From assembly GCF_001571225.1 (NCBI RefSeq), contig NZ_BCTJ01000016.1:1-64000 (forward strand): DNA of 64,000 nt, written 5' to 3'. This stretch comes from Hydrogenophaga palleronii NBRC 102513. Its GTDB lineage: Bacteria > Pseudomonadota > Gammaproteobacteria > Burkholderiales > Burkholderiaceae_C. The translations under genes were made by a program, and so were the position numbers. Each line of letters starts with the position of its first letter. The first letter of the stretch is position 1. The notes under the pieces are model-generated. The model searched no databases and had not been told where the DNA came from. It saw nothing but the letters and a program-made list of their open reading frames with translations. Below, piece after piece: positions 20,202-43,211 of this stretch.

Positions 20202-20352
20202 GGCGGTGATGGATGCATCTGGCAGGGCAAAAGTTCAGGCGGTGGCGCCATGCTGCAGGTTCCATGCCGCTTCCGATAGGGGCGAAACCCGTGCGCGTGT
20301 GGCCTTGGTCACGGCAACGGCCCACATTCGTGGCATGATGGCGCCCTTTAAT

Positions 20353-20371
20353 GCGAATGAATCTCAATTGC
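20353..20371. promoter_or_regulatory. Fur-like box upstream of the ECF sigma gene
   Basis: GCGAATGAATCTCAATTGC agrees with the classical Fur 19-mer at 11 of 19 positions and lies 54 bases before the sigma factor gene. A TTTAAT (20347-20352) directly before it could be the -10 element. Iron-dependent repression of this locus is the natural reading. Confidence 0.55.
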
Positions 20372-20424
20372 GTTGACGTGAGGCGTTTCTGAACGGCCCC
20401 GCGCACGCGGCCCGGCTCCCTTCC

Positions 20425-20940
20425 ATGTCCACTTCCCCGCATTCCGACGGCTCCCTGCTCCTGCTGTACACCGATCACCACGGCTGGCTGGTGCAGTGGC
20501 TGCGCCGGCGGGTGAACAACCTGCACGAGGCGGCCGACCTGGCCCAGGACACCTTCGTCAAGCTGATGGGCCAGAGCCCGGGCGAGCTGCGCGAGCCGCG
20601 CGCCTACCTGGCCACGGTGGCGCGTGGTGTGCTGATCGACCACTGCCGGCGCCTCTCGCTGGAGCGCGCCTACCTGGACACCCTGGCGCTGATGCCCGAG
20701 CCGGTCACGCCTTCGCCGGAAGAGCGCGCCATCGTGCTCGAAGCGCTGAGCCAGATCGACCAAATGCTCGACGGCCTCGGTCAGCGCGCGCGCAGCGCTT
20801 TCCTGCTGGCCCAGCTGGACGGGCTCACCTACCGTGAGGTGGCCGCGCGGCTCGGCGTGAGCCTGAGCTCGGTCGAGAAATACATGGCGACGGCGTTTCG
20901 CCACTGCTACCGCATCGTCTACCAGGACGGTGCCGCATGA
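20425..20940 (+). CDS. FecI-family ECF sigma factor
   Basis: This is a 171-residue extracytoplasmic-function sigma factor of the iron-starvation group. Region 2 has LHEAADLAQDTFVKLM, region 4 has LDGLTYREVAARLGVSLSSVEKYM (for example LTYREVAARLGVSLSSVEKY). Its stop overlaps the start of the FecR-like gene (ATGA), the standard sigma/sensor pair. A Fur-like box lies upstream. It is expected to transcribe the TonB receptor gene that follows when the receptor binds its ligand (established for Fec and Has systems; inferred here). Confidence 0.92.
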   Translation: MSTSPHSDGSLLLLYTDHHGWLVQWLRRRVNNLHEAADLAQDTFVKLMGQSPGELREPRAYLATVARGVLIDHCRRLSLERAYLDTLALMPEPVTPSPEERAIVLEALSQIDQMLDGLGQRARSAFLLAQLDGLTYREVAARLGVSLSSVEKYMATAFRHCYRIVYQDGAA

Positions 20941-21926
20941 GCGCACACCCCGGACATGCCACGGTGCCGGCGCCCGAGCCCGCCGTGGTGGAGGAGGCGA
21001 TCGCCTGGCTGGTGCGCCTGCAGTCGGGCGAGGCACAGCCCGCCGACTGGGAAGCGTGCCAGCGCTGGCGCGCCGCGCAACCCACGCATGCCATGGCCTG
21101 GGAACGGCTGCAACGCATACAAGGCCGCTTCAATGGCCTGCCGGACGGCCCGCGCGCGCGCACCGCGCTCGACGATGCCCGCCGCGACATGACGCGCCGC
21201 CGCGCCCTGCGCCTGCTGAGCGTGGCGTTCGTCGGCGGTGCCACCGCCTGGCTGGTGCGGCCGCTGTTGCCGGTTGACCAGCTGCTGGCCGACCACAGCA
21301 CCGGCGCCGGCGAACGCCGCCGCATCGAATTGCCCGACGGCACCCTGGTGTGGCTGGACACGCGCAGCGCGGTGGACGTGCGCTTCACCGCCGCCGAACG
21401 CCGCCTGGTGCTGCGCCAGGGCCGGGTGGCCCTGAGCACCGGCCGCGATGGCGCGGCCTCGGTGTACCGACCGTTGTGGGTGGAGACCCGGCACGGCACG
21501 GCGCGCGCGCTGGGCACCCGTTTCCAGGTTGGCCTGGACGAGGCCAGCACGCAGGTGCAGGTGTTCGAGCACGCGGTCGAGCTGCAGCCGCGCGAAGCCG
21601 CCGTGCCGCGGCGCTTGCAGGCCGGTGAGAGTGGACGTTTCGACGCCAGTGGTGTGCACGAGGTCGCGGCGCTGAACCCCGACCAGGACGCCTGGACCGA
21701 CGGCCTGCTGGTGGCACGTGACATGCCGCTGGGCGAGCTGATCCGCGAGCTCGCCCGCTACCGCCCGGGCTGGCTGGCCTGCGACAACGAGGTGGCGCAG
21801 CTGCGCATCTCGGGTGTCTTCAGCCTCAGCGACACCGACCGCACCCTGGCCCTGGTCGAGAAGACCTTGCCGGTGCGTGTGCAGCGCCGCACGAACCACT
21901 GGGTCACGCTGCAGCGCCGCACCTGA
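20937..21926 (+). CDS. FecR-family anti-sigma/transmembrane sensor
   Basis: This 329-residue inner-membrane protein controls the adjacent sigma factor. A cytoplasmic N-terminal domain (AIAWLVRLQSGEAQPADWEACQRW-like, for example DWEACQRWRAAQPTHAMAWE) precedes one membrane span near residues 90-108. The periplasmic FecR domain begins with RRRIELPDGTLVWLDTRSAV. The C-terminal part (MPLGELIRELARYRPG, then RISGVFSL) resembles the STN-like segment that contacts the receptor. It passes the signal from the outer-membrane receptor's STN domain to the sigma factor. Confidence 0.92.
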   Translation: MSAHPGHATVPAPEPAVVEEAIAWLVRLQSGEAQPADWEACQRWRAAQPTHAMAWERLQRIQGRFNGLPDGPRARTALDDARRDMTRRRALRLLSVAFVGGATAWLVRPLLPVDQLLADHSTGAGERRRIELPDGTLVWLDTRSAVDVRFTAAERRLVLRQGRVALSTGRDGAASVYRPLWVETRHGTARALGTRFQVGLDEASTQVQVFEHAVELQPREAAVPRRLQAGESGRFDASGVHEVAALNPDQDAWTDGLLVARDMPLGELIRELARYRPGWLACDNEVAQLRISGVFSLSDTDRTLALVEKTLPVRVQRRTNHWVTLQRRT

Positions 21927-21935
21927 CCGACCGAG

Positions 21936-21950
21936 CCCGGCCCCGCCGGG
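21936..21950 (+). terminator. Small hairpin after the FecR gene
   Basis: CCCGGC-CCC-GCCGGG is a six-bp stem ten bases after the fecR-like stop. No T-tract follows at once, so it is at most a partial terminator separating the sigma/sensor unit from the receptor gene. Confidence 0.35.
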
Positions 21951-21970
21951 CCGCGCGCTCCCGTCGCCTC

Positions 21971-22016
21971 AAAAACTTTTTTGCTGCCGCGTTGCGGGTT
22001 TTGCGCCGTCGTCCGT
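21971..22016 (+). promoter_or_regulatory. Candidate iron-starvation ECF promoter for the receptor gene
   Basis: The 179-base gap before the receptor holds an AT-rich block (AAAAACTTTTTT, 21971-21982), a GGTTTT element (21997-22002) and CGTC repeats (22007-22017). CGTC-type -10 elements are characteristic of FecI/PvdS-like sigma factors. The exact -35/-10 pairing cannot be fixed by eye. Confidence 0.35.
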
Positions 22017-22105
22017 CCTGTACCCAAGAGCCACACACACGGCCTTGCCGAGAGCCCGCTGCGAGCGGGTGCCGAGGGCAGGGCGACAACCCAAGGACCG
22101 ATGCC

Positions 22106-24931
22106 ATGACACAGCCCCCATTGCCCCGCACCGCGGGCGCCACGGGCCACCCCTCGTTTCGCGTGCTGCCACTGGTTGCCGCGTTGCTGGCGGTCGGCGC
22201 CACCCTGCCGCTCGCCTCGCCGGCCGCAGCGCAAGCGGTGAGCACCTCACGCGGCGAAGCCTTGCGCCCCTATGCGGTGGAGGCCGGCGGGCTGGAGGCG
22301 GCGCTGAACCAGTTTGCGCGCCAGGCCGGTGTGCTGATCTCTTTCGATGCGGTGCTGGTGCGTGGTCTGCAGAGCCCGGGTTTCCAGGGCCATGCCACGG
22401 TGGCCAGCGGCCTGGCCTCGGTGCTGGGCGAGCACCCGCTGGTGGCGCAGACCGAAGGCCCCGGTGCCTGGCGCATCCGCGCGGCGGCGCCCGGTTCGCG
22501 CCCGGGGCAGGCGGCCACGGCGGGTGAGCGGGCCAGTACGCCCGCGGTTGAAAACGCCCTGCCTACGGTGGAGGTGCGCGCCCAGTCCGAGGAAGAACTG
22601 CAGAAGGACTTGCCGTACCGCAGCGCCGGCTCGCGCAGCCACATCACACGCGACCGCATCGAGCAGTTCCGCGGCACCTCGGTGGGCGACATCTTCCAGG
22701 GCACGCCGGGCGTGCTCATCGGCGAGAACCGCAACAGCGGCGGGCTGGACGTGAACATCCGCGGCATGCAGGGGCAGGGCCGGGTGCCCGTGCTGGTGGA
22801 CGGCGCGCGGCAGGAGACCACGGTGTACCGGGGCTACGCGGGCGTGTCTTCGCGCAGCTATGTGGACCCCGACCTGATCGGCGGCATCGACATCGAAAAA
22901 GGCCCGAGCATGGCCGCCGGTGGCACCGGTGCGGTGGGTGGCCTGGTGACCATGCGCACCATCAACGCCGAAGACATCGTGCGACCAGGCCAGACGCTGG
23001 GCCTGCGCCTGCGCGGCAGCCTGCTGGGCAACAACAGCGGGTCGGCACCCGCGCCGGGCACACCGTCGGGCTACAACACCGGCGGCAATGGCACCGACGG
23101 TGTGTTCCGCATCAACTGCGTCATTGCCAGCCTGTGCGCCGGGCCCTTCAACATCGCCAATGCCCAGGCGTCCGACGAAGGCATGTCGCGCCCGGGCCTG
23201 CTCAAGCCCAAGAGCTTTGCCGGCAGCGCGGCCGTGGCAAAGCGCTTCGAGCAGGCCGACGTGGTGGCGGCCTACGCCAAACGCAGCCAGGGCAACTATT
23301 ACGCCGGCACCAAGGGGCCGGTGCCGTATCTGGACCTGTCCGACACGCAGAACCGCGGCTTCTACACCGAGGTGCGGCCCAAGGTCGTGGGCGCGACGCG
23401 TTTCCGCGCCGGCGAACGCATCGTCAACTCCAACTACGACAGCGAGTCGGTGCTGCTCAAGACCAAGCTCTACATGCCCGACGACCAGGAGCTGGAGCTG
23501 AGCTACCTCCGCTACGAAAGCACCTACGGCGAGCTGATGCCGTCGCAACTGCTCTGGCTCGGCCAGGTGCGCCAGACCAGCAACAGCCATGTGCTGGCCG
23601 ACACCTATGCCGCCCGCTACCGCTGGAACCCCGTCGACAGCACGCGGCTGGACCTGCGCGCCAACCTCTGGCACACCGACACCACCAGCGAGAACCGCAA
23701 CTACTCGGAAGGCACCTGGAGCAACGCCTTCGACATCGGCGGCGAAAACTACAAGCGCTGGGGCTTCGATCTGAGCAACGGCATGCGCTTCGACCTTGGT
23801 GGCGACATCAAGCTGAACTACGGCCTGTCGGCCCAGAACGAACGGGTGCGCGGTGACGGCCAGGCGACCAATTTTTCCGCGGGTGGTCGCGCCGGGCAAC
23901 GCGACGAATACAGCCTCTTCACCGACGTGCAGTGGAAGCCCGTGCCGAGCCTGACGCTGCAGGGCGGGCTGCGCCATACGCGCTTCCAGTCGCGCGACGA
24001 CAAGCCTCACAACGTGGACCCCGGCAGCGCCTACTGCGTGGACCCGGATGGCGACGGCGTGTGCGAGCCGCTCATGATGAGCAGCCGCAACAGCGGCACC
24101 GCGCCCATGGTCAGCCTGCTGTGGGAGCCGCGCGCCGGCCTGCAGTTCTATGCGCGCCATGCCGAGGCGCTGCGCATGCCGAGCCTGTTCGAAACCACGT
24201 CCGGCTTCTCGGTCAGCCCGTCGCAGGACATCCACCTCAAGCCCGAACAGGCCACCAGCCGCGAGATCGGTGTCAACTACCTCAAGGACGATCTCTGGCG
24301 CAGCGGCGACAAGTTCCGCGCCAAGGCCGCCTGGTTCCGCAACCACACGCGCGACTACCTCACCCGTACCTTCCCCAACACCTGGGAAGAGGGCATGGGC
24401 ACCCAGTTCTTCTCCTTGCGCAACATCCAGAGCGTGACCTTCCACGGCTTTGAACTCTCGGGCTCGTACGACCTCGGCCCGGCCTTCCTGGAGCTGAGCG
24501 GCACCCGCTACACCTTCATCGAGACCTGCCACTTCGGCAGCTACCGCCGCACCGAGTGCACCGACTACGGCATTGCCGCGAGTTACGTGAACAACATGAT
24601 TCCGCCCAAGTGGCACGCCAGCGCCACCCTGGGCGCGCGCCTGCTGCAACGCAAGCTCACGCTGGGCGTGCGCGGCACCTTCATGGGCCAGCGCACACCG
24701 ACACCGGCCCACAACGACCAGGGCGTGGTGTCGCAGGGGGCGGCCTCGCCGGTGCCCTGGCACAAGTACTCGCTGTGGGATCTGTTCGCCAGCTACAAGG
24801 TCAACGACCAGCTCAGCGTCGATTTCAACATCGACAACGTCACCGACCGCTACTACCTCGACGCCCTCAGCCTGGGTCTGGTCCCCGCGCCCGGGCGCAG
24901 TGCCCGCCTGAGCGTGACGCTGCGTTTCTGA
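22106..24931 (+). CDS. TonB-dependent outer-membrane receptor with STN signalling domain, probably for heme or hemoproteins
   Basis: This 941-residue receptor starts at ATG 22106. The signal peptide ends near SPAAAQA. An STN domain (about residues 50-125, YAVEAGGLEAALNQFARQAG) is followed by the plug (SHITRDRIEQFRGTSVGDIF to GGIDIEKGPS) and the barrel ending in Phe. The STN domain marks a receptor that signals through FecR and sigma, both encoded just upstream. The barrel resembles the hemoglobin/transferrin/lactoferrin-receptor group; the family FRAP/NPNL positions read LRMP and LKPE, with a histidine just before LKPE as a possible heme ligand. Cysteine pairs (NCVIASLC, YCVDPDGDGVC, TCHFGSYRRTEC) suggest disulfide-closed loops. 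The heme oxygenase downstream supports heme as ligand. Confidence 0.9.
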   Translation: MTQPPLPRTAGATGHPSFRVLPLVAALLAVGATLPLASPAAAQAVSTSRGEALRPYAVEAGGLEAALNQFARQAGVLISFDAVLVRGLQSPGFQGHATVASGLASVLGEHPLVAQTEGPGAWRIRAAAPGSRPGQAATAGERASTPAVENALPTVEVRAQSEEELQKDLPYRSAGSRSHITRDRIEQFRGTSVGDIFQGTPGVLIGENRNSGGLDVNIRGMQGQGRVPVLVDGARQETTVYRGYAGVSSRSYVDPDLIGGIDIEKGPSMAAGGTGAVGGLVTMRTINAEDIVRPGQTLGLRLRGSLLGNNSGSAPAPGTPSGYNTGGNGTDGVFRINCVIASLCAGPFNIANAQASDEGMSRPGLLKPKSFAGSAAVAKRFEQADVVAAYAKRSQGNYYAGTKGPVPYLDLSDTQNRGFYTEVRPKVVGATRFRAGERIVNSNYDSESVLLKTKLYMPDDQELELSYLRYESTYGELMPSQLLWLGQVRQTSNSHVLADTYAARYRWNPVDSTRLDLRANLWHTDTTSENRNYSEGTWSNAFDIGGENYKRWGFDLSNGMRFDLGGDIKLNYGLSAQNERVRGDGQATNFSAGGRAGQRDEYSLFTDVQWKPVPSLTLQGGLRHTRFQSRDDKPHNVDPGSAYCVDPDGDGVCEPLMMSSRNSGTAPMVSLLWEPRAGLQFYARHAEALRMPSLFETTSGFSVSPSQDIHLKPEQATSREIGVNYLKDDLWRSGDKFRAKAAWFRNHTRDYLTRTFPNTWEEGMGTQFFSLRNIQSVTFHGFELSGSYDLGPAFLELSGTRYTFIETCHFGSYRRTECTDYGIAASYVNNMIPPKWHASATLGARLLQRKLTLGVRGTFMGQRTPTPAHNDQGVVSQGAASPVPWHKYSLWDLFASYKVNDQLSVDFNIDNVTDRYYLDALSLGLVPAPGRSARLSVTLRF

Positions 24932-25055
24932 GCGCCGCCGCACATGCGGCCCACGCGGCCCATGCCGCCGATGCGGCCCGCCGCGCCCCTGTTCACTTTT
25001 TTCCCCATCCGCTTCGCCCGCCCAGCGGGCCCCATCTGCAAAGGAAGCTCACACC

Positions 25056-27635
25056 ATGAAGCACCCGATACGTCATCTCTTGCTGGGACTGGGCACCGCC
25101 CTGTTCCTGGCCGCCTGCGGCGGCGGCGGTGGAGGCGGCGGCAGCTCCGCTCCCACCACCCCCACGCCCACCGCGCGCGCCAGCGCCAGTGCCACCAACG
25201 TGGAAGCCGGCCAGACCGTCACGCTCGACGGCAGCGCCAGCACCTCGCCCAACGGCGGCGCCATCAGCTACCAATGGAGCGTGGAACAGCGCCCCGACGG
25301 CAGCAACGCCGCGCTGTCCGCACCGACAGTAGCCAACCCCAGCTTCACGCCCGACCTGCCGGGCAACTACCTCATCGGCCTGGTCGTGAACGACGGCCGC
25401 GCCAGCAGCACGGCGGCTCAGGTGGCCCTGGTGGTGAGCAACCCGAACCCGGTGGCGGTAGTCATTCCGCAGGTGAGCCAGCTGGTGAACACGGACGTGC
25501 AGCTCGATGGCAGCGGCAGCCTGGCACCACAAGGCGGCAACGCCAGCGGCCTGCGTTTCCTGTGGGTGCTCACCGAGCGGCCGGCCGGCAGCACCGCGGT
25601 GCTCGATGACGCGTTGCGCGCGCAACCGCGCTTCACGGCCGACCAGGTGGGGCGCTACGTGGCCACCCTGGTGGTTTCGCACGGCGGCAAAACCAGCGCG
25701 CCGGCCACGGTCAACATCGACATCGGCCAGGTCAACGCCTTGCCCGTGGCGAATGCCGGCCCGGCCATCACCGCCGTGCGTGGCAGCCGCGTCACGCTCG
25801 ACGGCAGCGCCAGCAGCGACGCCGACGGCGATGCCCTGCAGTACCGCTGGAGCTTCGCGCTCTTTGGCAAGCCTTATGGCTCGCGGGCCGTGATCGAGAA
25901 CGCCGACAAGGTCTCCGCGTTCTTCGTGCCCGACTTCGCCGGCACCTACCGCCTCACCCTCGCGGTGTACGACGGCACCGCCCGCACCACCGCCGGCCTG
26001 CAGGTCACGGTGACAAAGCCCGCAGGTGCGCCCAACACCAAGCCGGTGGCGGTCATCTCGCGGCCTTTCAACGCCACCTTCGAGTCCGAGCGCGACGTCG
26101 TGGTGGCCCTCACCGCCGTGTATTCGATGGATGCCGATGGTGACGTCATCCTCCCCGCCAACCGCGAATGGACGATGCTGTCGGCCCCTGCCGGGTTTGA
26201 CCGCGTGGCCAACTTCAACAACCCGTATCAGGGCTCCTTCAAGGGCACCCACTACGGCGACTACCTGCTGCAGCTGCGCGTGTTTGACGGCACGGACTGG
26301 AGCGACCCGGTCACGCAGGTCTACACCGTGATCAACGGCGCCAACCGGCCACCACGCGCCGTGGCCAAGGTGCTGGGCACCTCCAGTACCGTCGGCGTGG
26401 GCGCGACCGTCACCCTGTCGGGCGAGAACAGCACCGATGCCGACAACAACCGCCTGAGCTACCGGTGGACCCTGCTGGAACGCCCAGATGGCAGCGCGGC
26501 CCAATTGCGCAACGGCAACACCGTCAACGCCAGTTTTGTCGCCGACCGGGCCGGCCCCTACATGTTTGAGCTGGTGGTGACCGACGAGCACGGCGCGGTC
26601 AGCAGCGACGGCATCTCGAGCCAGCCGACCCAGATCATCGTGATGGCCAAGTCGCGCAACTACGCGCCGGTGGCGCGCCTGGAGAGCCTGGTGTCCTACA
26701 CCGCGGAGCAGCCCCTGGTGATCGGTGCCAAGGGCATCCAGGGAAATTACGCGTCGGCGGACTACGACATCTGGAACAGCTTCCAACTGCACCCCAACGG
26801 CTACGACTCCGACGGAGACGCCCTGAGCTACCTGTGGACGCTGACCCAGGGGCCGAGCAACAGCGCCTTCCAGATGCCGGCATCGGGCTACTTCTGCGGC
26901 GCCACGGGCAGCGCCAATTACCCAGGCCCTGACGTCATCGCCTACACGACCTGGCGCGACGAAGGCCTGGCCCTGCGCAACTGGACCTGCGACCGTCTGG
27001 GCCTCGCGCCCACCGTGGCCGGTACCTACCAGGTGCAGCTGGCCGTGAGCGACGGTATCGGCTTCGGTGGCCCCTACACCCTGAACCTGCACGCGGTTGA
27101 CCGTGCCAACTACCCCAGCCTGCTGCTGGAGCACATGAACCGGCAGCACACCTGGTCCAACGACGCGCAGGCCATGGTGCTGGAGGACGCCGACCCCGGC
27201 GCCGGCAACATGGCGGGCCTGGCACAGCAGGAGGTGTTCCCGTTCACCACCTTCGGCGGCAACACGAGCTTCTCCAACGCCATCACCAGCTCGCGCGATC
27301 TGCTCAAGACCTACTTCGACAACTACGTGTCGGGCCACTACGTGGTGCGTACCTTCCGCCTGACCGCTGGCGGGGGTGACTACACCATTCAAAACCTGGG
27401 CGCGACCGACAGCGAAGGCCGGCTGCAACCCGCCTTTGTCGGGCTGCAAAACGGCCAGGTGATCCGGCGTGGCGAAAGCGTGACCTTCCAACTGGTCTTG
27501 GCCGGCGGCACCATGCCGACGCTGGACACCAGCGGCAGCATCGTGAACACGAGCCGCAACCTGCGCTGGTCCTTCGGCGTGCAGGAGAAGCCGCACTTCA
27601 CCTTCGATTTCAACCCCACCATCGCGGTGTACTGA
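25056..27635 (+). CDS. Large PKD-repeat lipoprotein of unknown function in the heme locus
   Basis: This is an 859-residue exported lipoprotein. The lipobox LAAC ends at Cys21 and is followed by a run of glycines as linker. Five or six PKD/Ig-like modules follow (about 40-128, 130-225, 228-322, 330-425, 430-530, 540-690). They have repeated hallmarks such as VTLDGSAS, DADGDALQYRW, GTYRLTLAVYDG and DADNNRLSYRWTLLERPDG, and some contain DxDxD calcium-like loops. The last 170 residues form a distinct C-terminal region without repeats. A good ribosome site AAGGAAG precedes the ATG. Its place between the TonB receptor and heme oxygenase suggests a surface partner that binds hemoprotein or heme, but no such activity can be read from the sequence. 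Confidence 0.8.
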   Translation: MKHPIRHLLLGLGTALFLAACGGGGGGGGSSAPTTPTPTARASASATNVEAGQTVTLDGSASTSPNGGAISYQWSVEQRPDGSNAALSAPTVANPSFTPDLPGNYLIGLVVNDGRASSTAAQVALVVSNPNPVAVVIPQVSQLVNTDVQLDGSGSLAPQGGNASGLRFLWVLTERPAGSTAVLDDALRAQPRFTADQVGRYVATLVVSHGGKTSAPATVNIDIGQVNALPVANAGPAITAVRGSRVTLDGSASSDADGDALQYRWSFALFGKPYGSRAVIENADKVSAFFVPDFAGTYRLTLAVYDGTARTTAGLQVTVTKPAGAPNTKPVAVISRPFNATFESERDVVVALTAVYSMDADGDVILPANREWTMLSAPAGFDRVANFNNPYQGSFKGTHYGDYLLQLRVFDGTDWSDPVTQVYTVINGANRPPRAVAKVLGTSSTVGVGATVTLSGENSTDADNNRLSYRWTLLERPDGSAAQLRNGNTVNASFVADRAGPYMFELVVTDEHGAVSSDGISSQPTQIIVMAKSRNYAPVARLESLVSYTAEQPLVIGAKGIQGNYASADYDIWNSFQLHPNGYDSDGDALSYLWTLTQGPSNSAFQMPASGYFCGATGSANYPGPDVIAYTTWRDEGLALRNWTCDRLGLAPTVAGTYQVQLAVSDGIGFGGPYTLNLHAVDRANYPSLLLEHMNRQHTWSNDAQAMVLEDADPGAGNMAGLAQQEVFPFTTFGGNTSFSNAITSSRDLLKTYFDNYVSGHYVVRTFRLTAGGGDYTIQNLGATDSEGRLQPAFVGLQNGQVIRRGESVTFQLVLAGGTMPTLDTSGSIVNTSRNLRWSFGVQEKPHFTFDFNPTIAVY

Positions 27636-27642
27636 CCGCGTA

Positions 27643-27669
27643 CCCCGGACGGTGCCACACCGTCCGGGG
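27643..27669 (+). terminator. Very stable hairpin after the PKD lipoprotein gene
   Basis: CCCCGGACGGTG and CACCGTCCGGGG are perfect 12-bp arms around a CCA loop. The following bases CCATTCCTTTCCC are pyrimidine rich but not a clean T-tract. It probably ends or attenuates transcription before the heme oxygenase gene. Confidence 0.6.
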
Positions 27670-27684
27670 CCATTCCTTTCCCGT

Positions 27685-27712
27685 CCGGGCGGCGGCACCG
27701 TTCGCCGCCCGG
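27685..27712 (+). terminator. Second hairpin before heme oxygenase
   Basis: CCGGGCGGCG and CGCCGCCCGG form a perfect ten-bp stem around GCACCGTT, 16 bases after the first hairpin. It lies 25 bases before the heme oxygenase start, so it may affect translation or form part of an attenuator. Confidence 0.5.
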
Positions 27713-27736
27713 GCCTTCACCGATGGCCCTGGCGCC

Positions 27737-28363
27737 ATGTCCCCCATGTCTGACACACCCACCACTCCTTTGAGCGTTGCGCTCAAGGCCGCCACCGCGC
27801 CCACGCACGGTGTGCTGGACCAGCGCATCATGGCCTTCAACCCGTTTGCCGGCCGCGAGCACTACGCCGCCTTCCTGCAGATGCAATACCGCTTCCACCG
27901 CGATGTGGACGCGCTGTTCTCCGACCCCGAACTCAACCGCCTGCTGCCCGGCCTGTCCGAGCGGCGCCGCTTCCATCAGGTGGCGCAAGACCTGGCCGAT
28001 CTCGGCCTCACGCCATCCGGTGACGACACGCCACCCGCGTTCGTGCCCGGCGCCGCGGTTGACGTGCCCGGCGCACTCGGCTGGCTCTACACCGAAGAAG
28101 GCTCCAACCTCGGTGGCGCCTTTCTGTTCAAGCTCGCGGCCCGCATCGGCTTCGACGAAAACCAGGGTGCGCGGCACCTGGCACCACACCCCGAGGGCCG
28201 CGCACCGAGCTGGAAAGCCTTTGTCGCCCAACTCGACGCCGTGCCGCTGGACGCTGACGGCCGCGCGCGCGCAGCCGCGGGCGCACAGGCCGCGTTCGCC
28301 CGTGTGCTGGGCCATGTGGAAGCGTGCTGCCCCTTGCCCGTGGCCCAGGGCACCCCGGCGTGA
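27737..28363 (+). CDS. Heme oxygenase, bacterial HemO/PigA type
   Basis: This cytoplasmic enzyme opens heme to biliverdin, iron and CO. The 208-residue product has the proximal histidine in ATAPTHGVLDQRIM (His24) and the distal-helix motif EEGSNLGGAFLFK near residue 115-127, as in Neisseria HemO and Pseudomonas PigA. An ATG at 27746 is an alternative start. Its stop overlaps the GTG of the TPR gene (GTGA). Coming after an STN-type receptor and iron-starvation sigma factor, it would release iron from imported heme. No heme ABC transporter is encoded nearby. Confidence 0.88.
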   Translation: MSPMSDTPTTPLSVALKAATAPTHGVLDQRIMAFNPFAGREHYAAFLQMQYRFHRDVDALFSDPELNRLLPGLSERRRFHQVAQDLADLGLTPSGDDTPPAFVPGAAVDVPGALGWLYTEEGSNLGGAFLFKLAARIGFDENQGARHLAPHPEGRAPSWKAFVAQLDAVPLDADGRARAAAGAQAAFARVLGHVEACCPLPVAQGTPA

Positions 28364-29523
28364 GCGCTGGCCGCACACACTGGGCCGTGCTGCTGGCGCT
28401 GTGGGCGGGCGTGGCCCAGGCCAACGGCGCGCCCCAGGCGCCCCAGCCCGGTTGGCAGACCCTTTATGAGCAGGCCCTGCAGCAGCACGCTGCCCGTGAT
28501 TTCAGCGCCGCCGAAACCAGTGCACGGCAGGCCCTCGCCCTGGCCCGGCGCAGCCCGGACCCGGTGCGCGGCCAGGCCTTCGTGGCCAGCAGCCTCAATG
28601 CCCTGGCCCTGGTGCGCCAGGCGCAGGGACAACACGCGGAATCGATCGGCCTGCTGCGCGAGGCACTCGGCCTGAGCGAGGCCGCGCTGGGTGCCCACCC
28701 GAACACCGCGTCGCTGGCCTTCAATCTGGCGCAGGCGCTGGAAGCAGAGGGAGCCGTCGGGGAAGGGCGTGCCGGCGAAGCCGTGGCCCACTACGAACGG
28801 TGCCTGGCGATCAGCCAGGGCCTGTCGGACAGCACCAGCCTGGCCCTGCGCGCCAGGGCCGGCGCCGCGCTCGACCGCTGGCGCGAGGCGCAGCACGCCG
28901 ACCAGCTGACACGCGAGGCACGGGCGCTGCAGGCGCAAGGCCAGGCGGAGGCCGCGCGTGCGGCCTGGGCGCAGGTGCTGGCGGTGCGCGAAGCGCACAA
29001 CCCAGACGACCCGCTCCTGGCCGAAGCGCTCAACGAACTGGCGCAAGCGCACATGGCGCAGCAGGAACACGCCGCCGCCGAAGCGCTGCTGGCGCGTGCG
29101 CTGGCGCTGGTGGAACGGCACCAGGGCCCGCAGAGCCTGGAGGCGGCGCGCCTTGTGGGCACGCAGGCCCTGCTGCAGGGCGAACGCGGCCAGGAGGCGC
29201 GCGCGCAGGCGCTGCACGAGCGTGCGCTGGCCATCTATGAAGGGCATCCGGCGCAAGCCGAAGCGCTGCTGGGCCAGGCCCAGGCCCTCAACCACCTGGC
29301 GGGGCAGGTCTACCGCAAGCGGCGCTTCGACCTCGCCGAACCCCAGTTCCTGCGCGCGCTCGCGCTCACCGAACAAGCCGTGGGCAGCCATGACGTTCGG
29401 TTGTTGCCGCTGCTGGACAACCTGCAGGCGCTGTACCGCAGCCAGGGTCGGGCCGACGAGGCTCGGGCCTATGGGCGGCGTGCTGCGTTGTTGCGCAAGG
29501 CTGCGCTGGAGGTTTCGCCATGA
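28360..29523 (+). CDS. Secreted TPR-repeat protein
   Basis: This 387-residue protein begins at a GTG (28360) overlapping the heme oxygenase stop. A short signal peptide ends near AGVAQA. The rest is helical tetratricopeptide repeats of the Kinesin-light-chain type: segments such as AVAHYERCLAISQGL, LAEALNELAQAHMAQQEHAAAEALLARAL (in part HAAAEALLARALALVE) and EPQFLRALALTEQAVG. TPR proteins act as protein-binding scaffolds, probably periplasmic here. Its tight coupling to heme oxygenase and to the DUF454 gene suggests a role in the same physiology, but no function is known to me. Confidence 0.75.
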   Translation: MSAGRTHWAVLLALWAGVAQANGAPQAPQPGWQTLYEQALQQHAARDFSAAETSARQALALARRSPDPVRGQAFVASSLNALALVRQAQGQHAESIGLLREALGLSEAALGAHPNTASLAFNLAQALEAEGAVGEGRAGEAVAHYERCLAISQGLSDSTSLALRARAGAALDRWREAQHADQLTREARALQAQGQAEAARAAWAQVLAVREAHNPDDPLLAEALNELAQAHMAQQEHAAAEALLARALALVERHQGPQSLEAARLVGTQALLQGERGQEARAQALHERALAIYEGHPAQAEALLGQAQALNHLAGQVYRKRRFDLAEPQFLRALALTEQAVGSHDVRLLPLLDNLQALYRSQGRADEARAYGRRAALLRKAALEVSP

Positions 29524-29951
29524 GCGCCGCCCCGGAGCCCACCGCCACGGCCACCCCGGCCGCACCGCGCCTGGTGCAGAACCGGCTGGTGCGCGCGCTC
29601 TTGATGTTGCTGGCCGTGCTCAGCCTGGGCCTGGGCCTGCTTGGCCTGTTCCTGCCCGGTTTGCCGACCACCGAGTTCGTGCTGATCGCCGCCTGGGCGG
29701 CGGCGCGCAGTTCACCGCGCCTGCACCAGTGGATGCTGAACCACCGGCTGCTCGGGCCGCTGCTGGTTCAATGGCAGGCCGGGCGCCTGCCGCGCCGCGC
29801 CAAATGGGCCGCGACGCTGGCCATGTCGCTGGCCGCTACCGCACTGCTGCTGCACCTGCCATGGCCGCCACCCTGGTGGGTGGTGGCGGCCCTGGTGTCG
29901 ATGGCCTGCGTGCTGGCCTGGCTCTGGAGCCGGCCCGAACCGCTCAGATGA
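29520..29951 (+). CDS. DUF454 (YbaN) family inner-membrane protein
   Basis: This is a 143-residue membrane protein. The family core GLGLLGLFLPGLPTTEFVLIAAWAAARSSPRLHQWM (for example LPGLPTTEFVLIAAW) spans residues about 35-70, with three or four hydrophobic helices in total. The molecular role of YbaN proteins is unknown. It starts inside the TPR gene stop (ATGA), making a three-gene chain from heme oxygenase. Its 3' end overlaps the convergent gdhA gene by eight bases. Confidence 0.85.
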   Translation: MSAAPEPTATATPAAPRLVQNRLVRALLMLLAVLSLGLGLLGLFLPGLPTTEFVLIAAWAAARSSPRLHQWMLNHRLLGPLLVQWQAGRLPRRAKWAATLAMSLAATALLLHLPWPPPWWVVAALVSMACVLAWLWSRPEPLR

Positions 29952-42404: not shown

Positions 42405-43211
42405 ATGAACACAAGCACATCCCCTTCCCTGGTCGTGGAGCGCGTGCGCCACACCCTGCAGGTGCGCCGCCTCACGGTGCAGGCCATCGAGCGCGTCGGT
42501 GCGAACTTCCTGCGCATCCGTTTCGCGGGCGACTCGCTGCACGATTTCGTCAGCGCCTCGTTCGACGACCACGCCAAGCTCATGCTGCCGGCCCAGCCCG
42601 GCCAGCCGCTGGTGCTGCCGCAGCCGGGCCCCGACGGCCTGGCACTGCCGCCCGGCGCCGAGAAGCCCGCCATGCGCGACTACACGCCGCGCCAGTACGA
42701 CAACGCGGCGCGCGTGCTCGACATCGAGTTCATGCTGCACGGCGATGGCGCCGCCTCGCGCTGGGCCGAGTCGGCGCAGGTGGGCGACGAGGTCGGCCTG
42801 GGCGGGCCGCGCGGTTCCTTCGTGGTGCCCACGGCTTTCGACTGGCATCTGCTGGTGGGTGACGAGACCGCCATCCCGGCGATCGCGCGTCGCCTTGAGG
42901 AGTTGCCCGAGACGGCGCAGGCGCTGGTGGTGATCGAAACCGCCGACGCCGGTGACCGCCGCGCGTTCGACAGCCGTGCCAGCGTGCAGCTGCACTGGGT
43001 CGAGACCGGCGCCACCGATGCGCTGGCGCGCGCCGTGGCCGCGCTCACCCTGCCAGCGGGCGAGGGCTTTGCCTGGGCCGGTGGTGAGGCCGCGAGCATT
43101 GCCGCGGTGCGCCAGGTGCTGGTGGGGCAGCACGGCCTGGACAAGTCGCGCGTGCGCGCCTCGGCCTACTGGAAACGCGGCAGCGCCGGCCACCACGAAA
43201 CCCTGGGGTGA
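42405..43211 (+). CDS. Siderophore-interacting protein (NADPH-dependent ferric-chelate reductase)
   Basis: This 268-residue flavoprotein of the ViuB/YqjH family reduces iron in ferric siderophores so that it can be released in the cytoplasm. The FAD-binding region has MRDYTPRQYD, the middle shows GPRGSFVVP, and the NADPH side shows LLVGDETAIPAIARRLEELP and FAWAGGEAASIAAVR. In E. coli the equivalent gene has a dedicated repressor (YqjI); here a MarR protein takes that position. Confidence 0.92.
   Translation: MNTSTSPSLVVERVRHTLQVRRLTVQAIERVGANFLRIRFAGDSLHDFVSASFDDHAKLMLPAQPGQPLVLPQPGPDGLALPPGAEKPAMRDYTPRQYDNAARVLDIEFMLHGDGAASRWAESAQVGDEVGLGGPRGSFVVPTAFDWHLLVGDETAIPAIARRLEELPETAQALVVIETADAGDRRAFDSRASVQLHWVETGATDALARAVAALTLPAGEGFAWAGGEAASIAAVRQVLVGQHGLDKSRVRASAYWKRGSAGHHETLG

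Follow-up and report, generated by a model that had tools for sequence, protein, structure and literature searches.

A PKD-repeat lipoprotein gene recurrently linked to HasR-like receptor genes, and its predicted role as a partner in heme uptake

We investigated an operon of Hydrogenophaga palleronii NBRC 102513 that lies within a 64-kb stretch of contig NZ_BCTJ01000016.1 (the window, meaning the whole stretch of DNA analysed). In this operon, a FecI-type extracytoplasmic function (ECF) sigma factor, a FecR-type regulator and a TonB-dependent receptor with an STN domain are followed by an 859-residue PKD-repeat lipoprotein, a heme oxygenase (HemO), a tetratricopeptide-repeat (TPR) protein and a DUF454 membrane protein. 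An earlier note had read these genes and a Fur-like box from the sequence and had suggested that the lipoprotein captures hemoproteins; all these elements were confirmed, the Fur-like site being weak. Homologues of the lipoprotein gene recur beside receptor genes of the same heme/hemoglobin family, and the two proteins diverge in a matched way. From these sequence data we propose, with moderate confidence, that the lipoprotein is an outer-membrane accessory protein (co-receptor) of the HasR-like heme receptor encoded next to it, whether hemophilin is present or not. It probably aids bacteria in obtaining iron from heme, a part in which it has gone unrecognised.

Linkage and pairing of the PKD gene with receptor genes

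Homologues were sought from sequence only, and 24 genes, the window's included, were inspected. A receptor- or hemophilin-operon setting was found for 16 of them: those of the window, Comamonas sp. BIGb0124 (G022), a Xylophilus metagenome-assembled genome (MAG; G016), 'Pantoea sp. 18069' (the record's name; its locus is nearest to those of Comamonas and Xylophilus), Alcaligenaceae SAGV5, a Solimonas MAG, a Pseudoalteromonas plasmid and the genomes that we number G790, G1021 (two genes), G1059 (two genes), G1114, G1129, G1183 and G1388. The genes in the fetched loci are open reading frames with uncurated starts, which took their names from BLAST matches to proteins of the window, Comamonas, Xylophilus, Pseudoalteromonas and G790, and several genes in the Xylophilus contig are broken across frames. 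Sigma/FecR genes and a receptor gene stand upstream in the same gene run in 14 of the 16 linked cases; in G1129 the contig stops within the PKD gene, so that no receptor is in view, and in Xylophilus the 1 kb 5' of the PKD gene, up to the contig end, is without a receptor. By eye, this place, where the receptor would be expected, holds transposase-like and other unrelated sequence (L005 1-1050). Heme oxygenase lies within the fetched stretch in seven of the 16 (window, Xylophilus, Comamonas, 18069, Solimonas, Pseudoalteromonas and G1114), and G790, G1183, G1021, G1388 and G1129 have their own ExbB/ExbD/TonB genes there. The repeated linkage to STN receptors and heme oxygenase that the earlier note had asked for as support was thus found. 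As the linkage is recurrent, we rejected the possibility that an unrelated PKD protein had been inserted here once.

The C-terminal 178 residues of the lipoprotein matched three of 200 genomes of the taxonomic family, its own counted; the full-length profile (E <= 1e-30) matched one of 67 genomes of the genus, again its own. The order search gave three of 399 genomes, two of them weak (G231, E 3.8e-5; G414, E 7.0e-5), the class search three of 369, and the order of G790 gave 11 of 394 genomes with 13 matches. A search of plasmids for PKD homologues returned 23 records, two of which were inspected. The profile search of the contig collection returned five loci, two of them identical with those of Comamonas and Xylophilus; with the single protein as query the same collection gave no relative, and genus searches around these two genomes gave nothing beyond the known copies. 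Two more copies, the second one of SAGV5 (L035) and an additional PKD gene in L058, were found as neighbours only and are not counted among the 24.

The identity matrices of receptor and PKD protein correlate with r = 0.92 over 12 pairs, a value reached by 0 of 10000 permutations. The set leaves out Xylophilus and G1129, for which no receptor was seen, as well as G1021 and G1388, which have a different receptor subtype. As shared genome ancestry accounts for part of this correlation, the pairing within single genomes is the stronger point. In SAGV5, both proteins of pair a have their closest counterparts in the window (66% and 58%), and both proteins of pair b have theirs in Comamonas and 18069 (67/66% and 47/49%). 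In the same way, pair b of G1059 is nearest to G1183 in both proteins (79% and 82%) and pair a to the SAGV5a/window group (50/49% and 36/38%). Searched for on its own at E <= 1e-100, the receptor was found in two of 369 genomes of the class, the window's and G790, and the PKD gene adjoins it in both.

Sequence and predicted structure of receptor and lipoprotein

The receptor contains Plug and barrel domains in Pfam and scores 361 bits against the heme/hemoglobin receptor model TIGR01785 of NCBIfam, above the cut-off of 316.85. The nearest solved chains are those of HasR (E 2.1e-59), and we regard the protein as a predicted heme transporter of the heme/hemoglobin family, HasR-like in type. Its STN domain stays below the Pfam cut-off (21.4 against 28.4 bits) and was recognised through the solved FecA signalling domain 2d1u, to which residues 59-133 are similar (E 8e-8); FecI-type sigma and FecR genes adjoin the receptor gene, as in a FecIRA-type cell-surface signalling operon. 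Nine other receptors of the subfamily were scanned with TIGR01785 and all nine matched, seven above the cut-off, those of 18069 and Solimonas scoring just under it. The G1021 receptor, of the other subtype, gave no match at the limit used.

The lipoprotein carries a lipobox, LAAC, at residues 18-21, followed by a Gly-rich run. Among 12 aligned PKD proteins the lipobox Cys is the sole invariant Cys, and Gly occupies the +2 position in all 12. The K319L-like PKD model PF22352 matches in four stretches (3e-45), and PF18911 and PF00801 are also above the Pfam cut-off; a TbpB-type barrel was not detected, Pfam giving PKD/Ig domains only. A C-terminal module spans about residues 653-859 (27012-27632), with a conserved core formed by DYTI at 775-778 followed by F794, L797, Q801, I803 and G806. 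The stretches 601-640 and 681-760 hold many inserts and are little conserved, features that would suit a ligand-facing surface.

AlphaFold models built from 6-row alignments show mainly beta strands in a sandwich-like order, with a mean pLDDT of 69 for the whole lipoprotein and 63 for the C-terminal part. Compared with the Protein Data Bank (PDB) by Foldseek, the C-terminal model found no match at E <= 0.001; the best E of the C-terminal profile against PDB sequences was just 0.036, and against Pfam it gave one PKD match, below the threshold. For the whole-lipoprotein model the likenesses were to generic Ig strings, among them Robo2, contactin and titin.

Hemophilin, Slam and the possible roles of the lipoprotein

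The earlier note had placed the lipoprotein gene in the position of a hemophore gene. This was close: genes for hemophilin and Slam directly follow the PKD gene in Comamonas, 18069 and Xylophilus, and the window operon is without these two. The order is sigma, FecR, receptor, PKD, hemophilin, Slam, HemO and TPR in Comamonas and 18069, and PKD, hemophilin, Slam, HemO, TPR and DUF454 in Xylophilus; the window operon follows the Comamonas-type order minus hemophilin and Slam. The Comamonas hemophilin matches HphA_N (2.2e-6) and the solved hemophilin 8gmm (2e-11), and the hemophilins of 18069, Pseudoalteromonas, G1021 and G1388 match HphA models. That of Xylophilus matches no HphA model and that of SAGV5 only a TbpB barrel model, under the cut-off; both are BLAST relatives of the Comamonas or Xylophilus protein, and the G1129 hemophilin is named by BLAST alone. 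In G1021 and G1388 two short tandem PKD lipoprotein-like genes lie between receptor and hemophilin (L056 8310-11110 and L058 9381-12300). On the Pseudoalteromonas plasmid (L034 4580-22282), two sigma/FecR/receptor systems flank shared ExbB-ExbD-TonB-HemO-YbaN genes, with sigma, FecR, receptor and PKD on one side and receptor, hemophilin, Slam, sigma and FecR on the other. Hemophilin-bearing and hemophilin-free loci together indicate that the PKD gene is kept both with and without hemophilin and Slam.

Slam (PF04575) was found neither in the window's genome nor in the Solimonas MAG. Among seven other genomes or records, five contain a match above the cut-off, G929 contains none, and G790 has one below the cut-off (L033, C22:407141-407548), which is interrupted by internal stops and lies ~14 kb from the receptor/PKD operon. 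The hemophilin model PF22828 gave no match at E <= 1 in the window's genome, a negative that is weak alone because the Xylophilus hemophilin likewise escapes this model.

In the absence of hemophilin and Slam, the lipoprotein is the only large secreted-type partner left, and it could be asked whether it is itself a heme-binding hemophore that replaces hemophilin in the window. We hold this to be highly improbable: PKD protein and hemophilin are encoded together in Comamonas, 18069, Xylophilus, SAGV5 copy 2, G1021, G1388 and G1129, the 12 aligned PKD proteins share no invariant His or Met, and their one invariant Cys is the lipid anchor. A simple equation of lipoprotein and hemophore was rejected on the ground of this coexistence.

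Several observations weigh against the co-receptor role. Eight of the 24 inspected homologues, four of them from one genus, lie outside receptor or hemophilin operons. The G929 homologue has its C-terminal module in common with the window and no sigma, FecR, receptor or heme genes in 20 kb; those of G1125, G1153, G1166 and G1263 (one genus; L052-L055), of 727-728 residues, align over almost the full window protein at 30-31% identity and are located away from sigma, FecR and heme genes, the nearest receptor-like gene being ~5-7 kb off and weak (about 25-30% identity over part). The PKD family is therefore not confined to heme loci. The interpretation offered in the earlier note is partly supported: the linkage that it asked for holds, and hemoprotein capture, heme binding and a surface location are predictions. 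A Sphingomonas plasmid homologue has two receptor genes within 9 kb and no sigma, FecR or heme gene, the G414 homologue has no receptor or heme gene alongside, and that of G231 has neither on a 5.2-kb contig that is too short to judge the context. Among the 16 linked cases, nine have no heme oxygenase in the fetched stretch. Six alphaproteobacterial plasmid receptors (31-35% identity) served as a contrast set; they come from the 20 plasmid records of the receptor search, to which the Pseudoalteromonas plasmid also belongs. Within 6 kb of these six receptors no PKD gene is annotated, in gene tables (PLSDB) that are incomplete by their own description; all six adjoin FecR, and heme oxygenase and ExbB-ExbD-TonB come after one of them. 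With no Slam in the window's genome, a surface location of the lipoprotein would need another route. Finally, no His is invariant in the 12 aligned PKD proteins or in the 12 aligned receptors, two positions of the latter being His in 10 of the 12; a single heme site with conserved His ligands in the lipoprotein is thereby disfavoured.

The homologues outside heme loci, and the likeness of the full model to generic Ig strings, would also fit an iron-regulated adhesin or surface-structure protein, directed at glycans, cells or matrix and merely co-regulated with heme uptake; adhesive proteins and those that bind carbohydrates commonly contain PKD and Ig strings. We consider this unlikely, as the receptor belongs to the same subfamily throughout the 14 cases with a receptor in view, except G1021 and G1388, and receptor and PKD protein are matched in their divergence within genomes. 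The constant pairing with the receptor, the place of the PKD gene between receptor and hemophilin in several loci and the lack of a conserved heme ligand could, in turn, point to a helper that makes or places the receptor or hemophilin (an assembly factor, a lid or a periplasmic scaffold) and catches no ligand. This role appears quite unlikely to us: the PKD gene is present where neither hemophilin nor Slam was found (window, Solimonas), and the six distant contrast receptors are without a PKD gene.

In the co-receptor reading that we favour, iron starvation would relieve Fur repression and the sigma/FecR pair would be switched on, the presence of ligand being reported by the STN domain of the receptor. 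The lipoprotein, held by its lipid and the Gly-rich linker, would capture or position at the receptor a heme source, which may be a hemoprotein or, where encoded, hemophilin. Heme would then enter by means of TonB, and its iron would be freed by heme oxygenase. In the window, the scheme would run without hemophilin and without Slam.

The Has system combines sigma/anti-sigma control with STN signalling, and HasR is the nearest solved receptor. The window differs in having no visible HasA-like protein, its partner being an Ig-string lipoprotein, and no invariant His is found in receptors of its type. TbpAB, LbpAB and HpuAB are bipartite receptors with a surface lipoprotein of beta-barrel/handle type, several of them Slam-dependent. 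As in those systems, a TonB receptor gene adjoins the gene of a lipoprotein, here predicted to lie in the outer membrane, and the two form a matched pair; the window-type lipoprotein differs in being a PKD string and in occurring where no Slam was found. Bipartite TonB receptor systems are a known kind, and what appears to be new is that the receptor-PKD pairing recurs and extends to hemophilin/Slam loci.

More tentatively, and with less than even confidence, HasR-like heme receptors of beta- and gammaproteobacteria might have in PKD-repeat lipoproteins a new type of co-receptor that recurs and captures hemoproteins. An Ig-string arm would then work beside Slam-secreted hemophilin in some species and take its place in others, and it would get to the surface without Slam. 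Known outer-membrane heme partners comprise few architectures (HasA, hemophilin/TbpB-type barrels, HpuA and HmuY), to which a PKD/Ig-string partner, if the co-receptor role is true, would add one. Genes in iron operons that are at present annotated as hypothetical or as PKD domain protein would gain a role as well, and if the lipoprotein is at the surface in a Slam-free genome, how so large a lipoprotein arrives there becomes a question. Receptor and lipoprotein form a directly testable pair. The earlier reading of the locus was well aimed, the key function being a prediction.

We found no paper describing a PKD lipoprotein in heme uptake in the open-access literature, subscription papers being mostly uncovered. 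In the hemO cluster of Acinetobacter baumannii, which comprises HphR, the hemophilin HphA, the Slam HsmA and heme oxygenase, the order of sigma, anti-sigma, receptor and heme oxygenase, as listed, is that of the window. The cluster carries hemophilin and Slam, as do Comamonas and 18069, whereas the window is without both and has the PKD lipoprotein; among the cluster's genes as listed in PMC8560813 and PMC10483418, none is named PKD and one is called hypothetical. For Kerstersia gyiorum, two clusters of FecI, FecR, FecA and a 'PKD domain protein' are listed under iron uptake, with no role given in that part of the source (PMC6461280); likened by gene names only, they probably represent the same pairing. 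In a survey of cluster-1 Slam-type genes, heme oxygenase is alongside in 137 of 1,111 and DUF454 in 118 of 1,111, and PKD does not occur in the main text (PMC12282271), nor does it in PMC8406197.

Operon layout and regulatory signals

The operon genes are all on the + strand and are open frames where the earlier note had placed them (Table 1). The sigma and FecR genes, the HemO and TPR genes, and the TPR and DUF454 genes overlap by 4 bases. The top NCBIfam match of the sigma factor, FecI NF041727, reaches 198.5 bits, below the equivalog cut-off of 260, and NF007232 (FecI subfamily) reaches 197.2 bits, above its cut-off of 185. Comamonas, 18069, Xylophilus and Solimonas likewise have a relative of the TPR gene next to heme oxygenase, and DUF454 relatives are present in the loci of Xylophilus and Pseudoalteromonas.

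Table 1 Features of the operon in the window
Feature	Positions	Strand	Evidence
Fur-like site(s) 5' of the sigma gene	20347..20371	+	two overlapping 19-mers, 12 and 11 of 19 matches
ECF sigma factor, FecI type	20425..20940	+	NCBIfam
FecR-type sigma regulator	20937..21926	+	PF04773 2.5e-20
HasR-like TonB-dependent heme-family receptor with STN signalling domain	22106..24931	+	Pfam, NCBIfam, PDB
PKD-repeat lipoprotein, 859 residues	25056..27635	+	lipobox, Pfam
Two strong hairpins between lipoprotein and heme oxygenase genes	27643..27712	+	z -4.2
Heme oxygenase	27737..28363	+	PF01126 1.8e-20
TPR protein, GTG start, signal-like N terminus	28360..29523	+	Pfam
DUF454 (YbaN-like) membrane protein	29520..29951	+	DUF454 2.6e-32

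Scored against the Fur consensus, the site at 20347-20365 has 12 of 19 matches (P 0.01 by mononucleotide shuffles, 0.03 by dinucleotide-block shuffles), and 23 sites on both strands of the window score at least as high, so that on its own the site is weak. It gains weight because a match at P <= 0.05 occurs at the same place, around the start of the sigma gene, in 11 of 13 loci, the window counted; the top matches reach 17 of 19 in SAGV5 and G1021, and none was found in G790 and G1059 copy a. Of the two hairpins between the lipoprotein and heme oxygenase genes, the first has a 12-bp stem without mismatches and a loop of 3 bases, the second a 10-bp stem, and neither has a T run. They are a possible transcript-end or processing signal, which might give different transcript levels for the two parts of the operon.

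The lack of a heme ABC importer, which the earlier note had called unusual, is not so, since PMC10483418 lists none for the A. baumannii hemO cluster either. Among the window's open reading frames no heme ABC importer gene adjoins the operon, the rest of the genome not having been searched for one. Judged by eye from the translations, the operon is flanked on the opposite strand by an alpha/beta-hydrolase gene upstream and a glutamate-dehydrogenase gene downstream. A gene for a siderophore-interacting protein (SIP with FAD-binding domain) is found at 42405-43211, ~12 kb off the operon.

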